64,000 bases of DNA from Endobacter medicaginis (lineage in GTDB: Bacteria > Pseudomonadota > Alphaproteobacteria > Acetobacterales > Acetobacteraceae): NCBI RefSeq assembly GCF_014192375.1, contig NZ_JACHXV010000002.1:1-64000 (forward strand). Reading direction: 5' to 3'. Positions 28,144 to 29,410 of the stretch are shown one piece after another. The notes beneath the pieces were generated by a model, which ran no database searches, was not told the origin of the DNA, and worked only from the letters and a program-made list of their open reading frames with translations. The position numbers and the translations under genes are program-made. Within the stretch, counting starts at the first letter, position 1; each line of letters starts with the position of its first letter.

Positions 28144-28542
28144 TCAGTTCTCGAAGGCCGTGAGGATCGGGCACGGTCCGGCGGCGCCGCGGTGACATTC
28201 GTCGGCCAGGCGCGACAGCGCGTCGCGCGCGGCGGTGAGGATCGCGATCTGCGCATCGAGAGCGGCGATCCGTTCACGGGCGATGGCATGGGCGCGCGCC
28301 CGGTCGTCCGTCGCATCGAGCGCAATCAGCCCGGCAATCTCGTCGAGGCTGAATCCGGCCCCCCGGGCACCGCGGATGAAGCGCAGGCGCGCGAGATCGG
28401 CCGCGCCATACCGGTGGATCCCCTCCCCGCGTGGACGCTCGAGCAGGGCGCGACGATGATAGTAGCGGACGGTCTCGACCCCGACGCCGCCGGCACGGGC
28501 GAGTTCGGAAATGGTCATGGCAGGGACTGTGCTCGACATCAT
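28144..28542 (-). CDS. MerR-family metal-type regulator
   Basis: A 132-residue MerR-type activator. The winged helix (TISELARAGGVGVETVRYYHRRALL, residues 10-34) and RYGAADLARLRFIRGARGAGFSLDEIAGL are clear. A long dimer helix follows, and the metal loop near residue 113 reads C-H-x6-C-P-I-L, that is Cys-x7-Cys as in CueR, not the Cys-x8-Cys of MerR. The Cys of MerR's dimer helix is absent. The start could be 28542, 28539 or 28518; the first two use GGAG inside the operator. It is divergent from the glutaredoxin-MauE gene, whose promoter it probably controls by the family's spacer-distortion mechanism. Confidence 0.85.
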   Translation of the reverse strand: MMSSTVPAMTISELARAGGVGVETVRYYHRRALLERPRGEGIHRYGAADLARLRFIRGARGAGFSLDEIAGLIALDATDDRARAHAIARERIAALDAQIAILTAARDALSRLADECHRGAAGPCPILTAFEN

Positions 28543-28573
28543 TGACTCCGTACCGCGGTACGGATGCTAGATT
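28542..28573 (+). promoter_or_regulatory. MerR-type promoter with 16-bp operator
   Basis: TTGACT (28542-28547) and CTAGAT (28567-28572) are separated by 19 bases, the over-long spacer diagnostic of MerR-controlled promoters. The spacer holds the perfect palindrome CCGTACCGCGGTACGG (28548-28563). The mercury-resistance promoter has the same start, TTGACTCCGTAC, and the same GTACGGA half, with a different centre. Transcription would start near 28580 toward the glutaredoxin-MauE gene. Confidence 0.8.
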
Positions 28574-28609
28574 GGTGCGTTGTGGCGCAACAGCAAGGAG
28601 GGCCGCATC

Positions 28610-29410
28610 ATGGACAGTCTGCCTCTCGATCCGCCCGCGCCGATGGCTGCCGATGGCCGACCCCGTCGCGCGATCCTCTATCGCATGGCGCTGCCGGACC
28701 ATCTGTGTCCGTCGGGGCAGAAGGCGCGGTTCCTGTTGCGCCGTCGCGGTTACGACATCGAGGACCATCTGCTGCGCACGCGCGAGGAGGTGGATGCGCT
28801 CAAGGCGCGCCTGGGCGTCTCGACCACGCCGCAGGTGTTCATCGGGGGAGAGCGCATCGGCGGGTATTCCGACATGCGCCAGCATTTCGGTATCGCGCGC
28901 GACCCGAAGGCTACCACCTACCGGCCGGTGATCGCGGTCTTCGTGGTCGCTGCGCTGATGGGGATGGCGACGAGCTGGCAGGCGTTCGGCACGCCGCTGA
29001 CCGCGACGGCGCTGGCCTGGTTCATCTCGTTCTCGATGTGCATCCTGGCGATCCTGAAATTGCAGAATGTCGAGACATTCTCGACGATGTTCCTCAACTA
29101 TGACCTGCTCGCCCGGGCCTGGGTGCCGTATGCCTATATCTACCCGTTCGCCGAAGCCGCGGCGGGCGTGCTGATGGCAGCCGGAATCCTGCCCATGGTG
29201 TCGATCCCGCTTGCGCTGCTGATCGGCGGCATCGGCGCGGTCTCGGTGTTCAAGGCGGTCTATATCGACCGGCGGCAGCTCAAATGCGCCTGCGTCGGCG
29301 GGGGTGCGAACGTGCCGCTCGGCTTCGTGTCGCTGACCGAGAACCTGTTCATGGTCGGCATGGCGCTGTGGATGGCGGCACGGCTGGTCTGGCCGGCGAT
29401 CCCGGGCTGA
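28610..29410 (+). CDS. Glutaredoxin-MauE fusion membrane protein
   Basis: A 266-residue fusion. Residues about 17-97 are a glutaredoxin-like domain (AILYRMALPDHLCPSGQKARFLL, then GVSTTPQVFIGGERIGGYSDM) with the TTPQVFIGG cis-proline region. The active site is C-P-S-G, with one cysteine instead of C-P-Y-C. Residues about 110-266 form four membrane helices of the MauE/DoxX-like redox family, with a K-C-A-C-V-G-G motif before the last helix. MauE proteins support disulfide handling during methylamine dehydrogenase maturation; here no mau genes are nearby. The binding site is strong (AAGGAGG). Preceded by a MerR-type promoter and overlapping the next gene by one base (TGATG). Confidence 0.82.
   Translation: MDSLPLDPPAPMAADGRPRRAILYRMALPDHLCPSGQKARFLLRRRGYDIEDHLLRTREEVDALKARLGVSTTPQVFIGGERIGGYSDMRQHFGIARDPKATTYRPVIAVFVVAALMGMATSWQAFGTPLTATALAWFISFSMCILAILKLQNVETFSTMFLNYDLLARAWVPYAYIYPFAEAAAGVLMAAGILPMVSIPLALLIGGIGAVSVFKAVYIDRRQLKCACVGGGANVPLGFVSLTENLFMVGMALWMAARLVWPAIPG

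Follow-up and report, generated by a model that had tools for sequence, protein, structure and literature searches.

A mercury-type operator between a MerR-family regulator and a glutaredoxin-MauE gene in Endobacter medicaginis, with a probable link to monovalent metals

Regulators such as MerR and CueR activate transcription by distorting DNA, and their selectivity between +1 and +2 ions is set mainly by a residue from the other subunit, which is Ser77 in CueR and a cysteine in CadR and ZntR (PMC9909328). A survey of proteobacterial MerR sites gives TCCGTAC-(4)-GTACGGA as the published site and records 20-bp spacers at a few 'mixed' mer sites (PMC1526738). SmGrx3 of Sinorhizobium meliloti, a glutaredoxin fused to a MauE domain, has low deglutathionylation activity and a function that 'still remains to be elucidated', and no transcription factor is given for it in the available part of its description (PMC6315971). 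Among the matches listed in the open-licence literature there is no paper on the pairing of a Grx-MauE gene with the regulator described here, nor any report of a metal response for the regulator family.

The stretch of Endobacter medicaginis DNA analysed here (the window) is 64,000 nucleotides long, and in it the promoter TTGACTCCGTACCGCGGTACGGATGCTAGATT (28542-28573) lies between a minus-strand MerR-family gene and a plus-strand Grx-MauE gene (Table 1). A sequence-only reading of this region had noted that the promoter starts like the classical mercury-resistance promoter and carries a perfect 16-bp palindrome, and both observations hold. The starting segment TTGACTCCGTAC is present at 28542-28553 (0.17 matches are expected per window at ≤1 mismatch), and the window promoter agrees with the mer promoter of pMOL30 (L114) at 18 of 18 fixed bases. 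The palindrome (28548-28563) extends to a perfect 18 bp and fits the published proteobacterial MerR site (PMC1526738). Its pattern occurs at a single place in the 3.63-Mb genome, with no matches to a reversed control pattern, and under a base-composition model the chance expectation for the 18 fixed bases is ~7e-5 per genome. The operator sits inside a promoter spacer of 19-20 bp, as in the MerR family generally, and is of the kind used by Hg(II) MerR; the ACCTTCC...GGAAGGT operator of CueR and HmrR is absent from the window promoter. Two -10 boxes can be drawn, of which TAGATT has four of the six consensus bases and CTAGAT two, and in the 55 family promoters columns 27-31 read TATAT, column 28 being A in every one. 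TAGATT gives a spacer of 20 bp, as do the family columns, and the spacer is therefore most likely 20 bp in the window and the family, rather than the 19 bp first proposed.

Table 1. Features of the regulator-promoter-Grx-MauE region (window coordinates)
Feature	Position	Strand	Basis
MerR-family regulator, 132 aa	28144..28542	-	Pfam PF13411 + PF09278, alignment, tree, AlphaFold2 model
-35 box TTGACT, promoter facing Grx-MauE	28542..28547	+	Sequence and column conservation over 55 promoters
Operator, perfect 18-bp palindrome TCCGTACCGCGGTACGGA, 7-4-7 MerR type	28547..28564	no strand	Sequence, family conservation, published consensus
-10 box TAGATT (20-bp spacer)	28568..28573	+	Sequence and family columns 27-31 TATAT
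Alternative -10 CTAGAT (19-bp spacer)	28567-28572	+	Sequence
Shine-Dalgarno-like AAGGAGG	28595..28601	+	Sequence
Grx-MauE, SmGrx3 type	28610..29410	+	PF00462 + PF07291

In Grx-MauE an N-terminal glutaredoxin domain, which contains Cys33, is followed by a MauE membrane domain whose CAC motif comprises Cys226 and Cys228; the fusion of the two is what marks SmGrx3. The 24 orthologues aligned with it are 57-70% identical, and Cys33, Cys226 and Cys228 are conserved in all 25 aligned proteins (Cys144 in 15). A fold search with the Grx-MauE model (pLDDT 76.9) gave no match at E ≤0.001, the best of several weak glutaredoxin matches having an E of 2e-3. A DHDPS-family gene (PF00701; 29410-30303, plus strand) starts inside the Grx-MauE stop codon (TGATG), and because of this overlap the two may share one transcript; having a homologue at none of 80 related loci, it was rejected as a part of the module. 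The operon encodes no metal pump, as had been noted from the letters. Beyond the regulator is an alginate-export-type porin gene (PF13372; 26253-27923, minus strand).

The regulator has the MerR helix-turn-helix and MerR-DNA-bind domains and two cysteines only, C116-x7-C124, followed by Pro-Ile, and the dimer-helix cysteine reported as missing is indeed replaced, with Arg81 at the position of MerR Cys82. Its ATG overlaps the -35 box; an alternative ATG is at 28518. All of its NCBIfam scores are below the cut-offs, both for the mercury models (TIGR02051 MerR, 85.2 bits against 150.85; NF010315, 81.9 against 261) and for CueR (TIGR02044, 74.2 against 147.4). Measured against known sensors, the family has Arg or His in place of the first of the Hg(II) ligands of Tn501-type MerR (Cys82/Cys117/Cys126); it has the two-cysteine loop of CueR and HmrR with no third cysteine, and Arg or His instead of their Ser at the Cys82 position. 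The AlphaFold2 model (pLDDT 89.8) has Tn501 MerR-Hg (5crl, 35% identity) as its top PDB match. Recognition residues V22, E23, T24 and R30 are identical to those of MerR and differ from those of CueR, in agreement with a published table of residue-base correlations (PMC5045206).

The regulator had been called CueR-type, and descent argues otherwise. In a 68-row tree (midpoint root, family rows thinned to 49, three named references only, bootstrap not settled) the family, i.e. those 49 rows and L095, lies on one side of a branch supported at 100/94, and a second branch (99/93) splits the family plus three Hg MerR rows from the remaining rows; rows L096 and L098 carry the Hg MerR label by virtue of their three cysteines. 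CueR, represented by one E. coli sequence, and ZntR are elsewhere (100/76) on long branches. The tree thus places the regulator beside pMOL30 Hg MerR and apart from CueR, as far as sequence relationships can tell, and this position, together with the Arg where CueR has Ser, rules out a CueR-type regulator by descent. A second MerR-like group (L125, L126, L127, L132, L133) forms its own clade (99/96), with the Cys82 position occupied by Ser, Thr, Leu or Cys; it uses an operator of the same kind, which in four cases precedes the member's own gene by 40-55 bp, and L132 adjoins a merA-like gene. Elsewhere in the Endobacter genome (L156 5500-13000, G000:C5) three more MerR-type regulators share a 5-kb stretch; each of them retains the third cysteine, and one adjoins a metal P-type ATPase.

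We surveyed the best 80 of 571 confirmed Grx-MauE loci (from at least 595 candidates; locus length 5.6-10.8 kb), a choice that biases the survey to close relatives. A divergent homologue of the regulator is present in 50 of the 80 (paired loci), and a separate regulator search added four more. Looking for the palindrome before other Grx-MauE genes, a check put forward with the sequence-only reading, finds the operator at ≤3 mismatches in all 54 related pairs; with the window included there are 36 promoters with no mismatch, 13 with one, four with two and two with three, and no sites in 400 kb of background. Both loop cysteines are in all 55 family sequences, spaced x7 in 54 and x6 in one, and the Cys82 position is Arg in 51 and His in four, never Cys, although four of the sequences have a third cysteine at another place. 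In the 39 pair-carrying genomes there are 52 operator sites, and all 14 of the stretches that were read hold the regulator, 13 of them with Grx-MauE (two known copies and 11 additional ones). At L196, the remaining one, the regulator faces a Met/His-rich protein that matches nothing in Pfam or NCBIfam.

The pair is widespread, although rare in the window's own family. Grx-MauE was found in three of 40 relatives searched (the window's genome included), and in none of the other same-family genomes among them, and plasmid records with a relative number 295 for Grx-MauE (E 1e-10) and 88 for the regulator (E 1e-15). One Sphingomonas genome (G436; L062, L189, L190 and L200) has four operator copies with the pair, which suggests that the module is mobile. 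In S. meliloti 1021 a single Grx-MauE gene is present in the 45 kb of pSymA that were read (~157.6-158.3 kb), with the same divergent regulator and a 2-mismatch operator; from its position and domain order we infer that it is SMa0280. In a Sphingomonas paucimobilis plasmid (L107 6092-8735) a mannose-1-phosphate guanylyltransferase gene is between the regulator and Grx-MauE, which are ~1.4 kb apart, and despite this intervening gene the operator stayed with Grx-MauE. A Paracoccus yeei plasmid (L110 7211-8393) has the regulator and a 3-mismatch operator inside a copper cluster, with no Grx-MauE in 16 kb; the regulator there faces the start of what we take, by resemblance, to be an arsH-like gene. 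Across 385 genomes the operator pattern with its 4-base gap has 12 sites in ten genomes, and a negative control pattern with a 3-base gap has none. Four of the 12 are at the regulator family (L120, L124, L128, L130), four are upstream of the second MerR-like group (L125, L126, L127, L132) and four are assigned to neither (L129, L131, L133, L134); since the second group also has pattern sites, the operator is not unique to the regulator family.

The operator and the descent of the protein raise the question of whether this is still a mercury sensor, with MerR binding Hg(II) by two cysteines and inducing a thiol-repair gene in place of mer genes. The regulator groups with Hg MerR and has the same operator, and MerR is its top NCBIfam score, albeit under the cut-off. 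However, Cys82 is absent throughout the family, and the C82Y form of MerR is described as having serious defects in dimerisation and in affinity for Hg (PMC5027573). Genes for merA/T/P/D/E are within 5 kb of none of the 50 paired loci and one of the 30 unpaired ones, and no linked mer genes are in the window. Where merA does score over its cut-off (seven of the 39 pair-carrying genomes), the MerR linked to it belongs in each case to another type, with all three cysteines retained. In the 3.2-4.4 kb read at each of these seven merA loci there is no operator of the present kind, barring one 4-mismatch match inside L212 that looks like chance, and the mer promoters of L207-L211 have CTGTAG-TGG-CTACAG, with variants in L206 and L212. 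We therefore consider a surviving Hg(II) response quite unlikely, and the mer-free paired loci and window, together with the different MerR of the merA genomes, rule out a mercury operon context. The same seven regulators bear on the Cys-x7-Cys loop, which had been read as that of copper sensors. The loop is present in the window's regulator; it fails as a mark of copper, being found in all seven of these MerR proteins from true mer operons (Cys-x7-Cys-Pro in six and Cys-x7-Cys-Ala in L212). Because it is uninformative, the absence of the third cysteine is the only cysteine feature in favour of +1 ions.

The genomic context points in part to copper. The next-best operator in the window's own genome (G000:C1:136859-136880) has two mismatches and the same layout, and is just upstream of a gene for a copA-type multicopper oxidase (TIGR01480, 732.8 bits against a cut-off of 478.95). 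The ATG of this gene begins 39 bases downstream of the point at which the -35 of the site starts. A 2-mismatch site is expected ~0.09 times in a genome of this size from the reversed-pattern control (four matches in 39 genomes, ~167 Mb), and 0.13 times from base composition. No MerR-type gene was found beside this site, and the oxidase is probably a second target of the regulator. We note that at this site (L155 9842-9881, minus strand) the ATG is 7 bases past the presumed -10 (TAGGCT), a gap so short that the transcript would be almost leaderless. In another arrangement, in Sphingomonas (L191, G410), the stop codon of Grx-MauE runs into the start of a tandem copA oxidase gene (TIGR01480, 798.5 bits). 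The window's genome also has copper-type P-ATPases on another contig, and no MerA or CueR over cut-off; two of its loci were scanned and have no such operator at ≤4 mismatches.

Copper-type genes, for which we counted multicopper oxidase, CopB, CopC, CopD, CusF, cupredoxin and, by judgement, DUF411, are within 5 kb of 28 of the 80 loci (16 of 50 paired and 12 of 30 unpaired), or 22 if loci with DUF411 alone are excluded (12 and 10, respectively). Background stretches of ten kb, drawn for copper from two genomes, have copper-type markers in none of 40 (Fisher p 1.9e-6 for 28/80) and mer markers in none of 40. There is no copper marker within 5 kb of 34 of the 50 paired loci, and no copper or mercury markers occur anywhere in the 64 kb of the window. 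Among twelve annotated plasmid loci, copper genes are near L103, L104, L109, L110 and L117, L118 has a heavy-metal P-type ATPase and DUF305, L106 has DUF305 only, and L105, L107, L108, L116 and L119 are isolated pairs. Among unpaired Grx-MauE genes a CsoR homologue is within 2 kb upstream of nine of 30 (five within 700 bp) and three others (L018, L072, L083) are preceded by a CueR-type operator resembling the one at E. coli copA, twelve of 30 in all; the 50 paired loci have one CsoR homologue (L020) and no CueR-type operators. All nine of the CsoR homologues have the Cys-His-Cys triad that we take to be a copper mark, and that of L004 has RicR as its best NCBIfam match, under the cut-off.

Taken together, the regulator is probably a MerR-derived activator of Grx-MauE that responds to a monovalent metal (Cu, Ag or Au), with the metal, the binding, the activation and the biochemical role of Grx-MauE being what we infer, and the operator and its conservation, the cysteine pattern, the descent and the copper genes near relatives being what the sequences show. 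In the mechanism that we propose, a regulator dimer would occupy the mer-type operator, as MerR does its own, within an overlong spacer of 20 bp, and ligand binding would twist the DNA so that RNA polymerase transcribes the divergent Grx-MauE gene. The ligand would most likely be Cu(I) (or Ag or Au), held linearly between Cys116 and Cys124. With an Arg at the Cys82 position a third thiolate from there is impossible, and a linear Cys-M-Cys site would be the simplest outcome; the conserved Arg that replaces the third cysteine of the trigonal Hg(II) site of MerR could balance the charge of the bis-thiolate. It is also not the Ser of CueR, and the chemistry of the metal site could differ as a result. 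Mercury also accepts two thiolates, which counts against copper. Grx-MauE would act as a membrane thiol-redox protein under copper stress, and with one invariant Cys in its glutaredoxin domain and two in its membrane part it could plausibly run a thiol relay at or across the membrane. GigT of C. metallidurans, a membrane protein induced by copper and with a loose relationship to DoxX, has been proposed to do redox work (PMC10304878); against a copper role, the Smgrx3 mutant has no phenotype under the conditions tried (PMC6315971).

Two further explanations concern the signal and the target. Through a disulphide between its loop cysteines, or through their reaction with glutathione disulphide or electrophiles, the regulator might be a thiol-redox sensor that induces a glutaredoxin; the target is a glutaredoxin fusion, and Smgrx3 is listed as heat-shock induced (PMC6315971). 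We nonetheless regard this as unlikely, given that other Grx-MauE genes adjoin CsoR-like genes or follow CueR-type operators, that two copA oxidases have the same operator or operon, and that the loop length and CPI motif match those of metal-sensing MerR proteins. The regulator could also have no control over Grx-MauE, the two being merely co-inherited neighbours and the site serving autoregulation, which would predict the observed overlap of the regulator start with the -35. That is highly improbable, as the -35, palindrome and -10 are oriented towards Grx-MauE in 54 pairs, the L107 site was kept with Grx-MauE and not with the distant regulator, and the copA site of the window's genome lacks an adjacent MerR-type gene.

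The mismatch first remarked on, in which operator and sensor seemed to point to different metals, dissolves: the operator tracks the lineage of the protein and not the metal, as the MerR-like recognition residues indicate, and Grx-MauE sits in copper clusters elsewhere. The suspicion of a metal other than mercury survives, so that the original observation is confirmed and its interpretation partly supported. A fuller account, which we hold to be evenly poised between right and wrong, is that a clade of Hg MerR became a monovalent (copper) sensor through the loss of one Cys to Arg, with the operator frozen and the spacer one base longer. The mer operator would then be a mark of lineage and SmGrx3 a copper-stress protein, and crosstalk would be avoided since co-resident mer operons use another MerR and operator. 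The metal specificity of MerR proteins is usually read from their cysteines and operator, and in this whole clade the two disagree; annotation from the operator alone would therefore label many copper-linked genes as mercury genes. Moreover, the Arg at the selectivity position represents a natural experiment on the change from a +2 to a +1 sensor, the copper reading makes Grx-MauE and SmGrx3 open to a concrete and inexpensive test with copper, silver and gold, and the regulator and promoter are a ready sensor-promoter pair for biosensors.

Comparison with described systems shows a mixture of features. CsoR and RicR, a homologue of which is upstream of the nine unpaired Grx-MauE genes noted above, belong to a protein family unrelated to the regulator, and are repressors and not DNA-distorting activators. 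CueR and HmrR resemble the regulator in the Cys-x7-Cys-Pro-Ile loop, the lack of a third Cys, the copper gene context and a multicopper oxidase as target (a probable one for the regulator), but they differ in lineage, in having Ser77 instead of Arg, and in using ACCTTCC...GGAAGGT in place of CCGTAC-N4-GTACGG. SmGrx3 has the same domain order and CPxG-type site as the window's Grx-MauE. The closest likeness in fold, recognition residues, operator (18/18 fixed bases) and divergent layout is to MerR and the PT promoter of Tn501 and pMOL30, and the pMOL30 protein is in the neighbouring clade of the tree. In contrast to these, the regulator family has Arg or His for Cys82, a loop of x7 (x8 in MerR) and a -10 one base further from the -35 (the TAAGGT of pMOL30 is one base earlier), and it faces Grx-MauE without mer genes.
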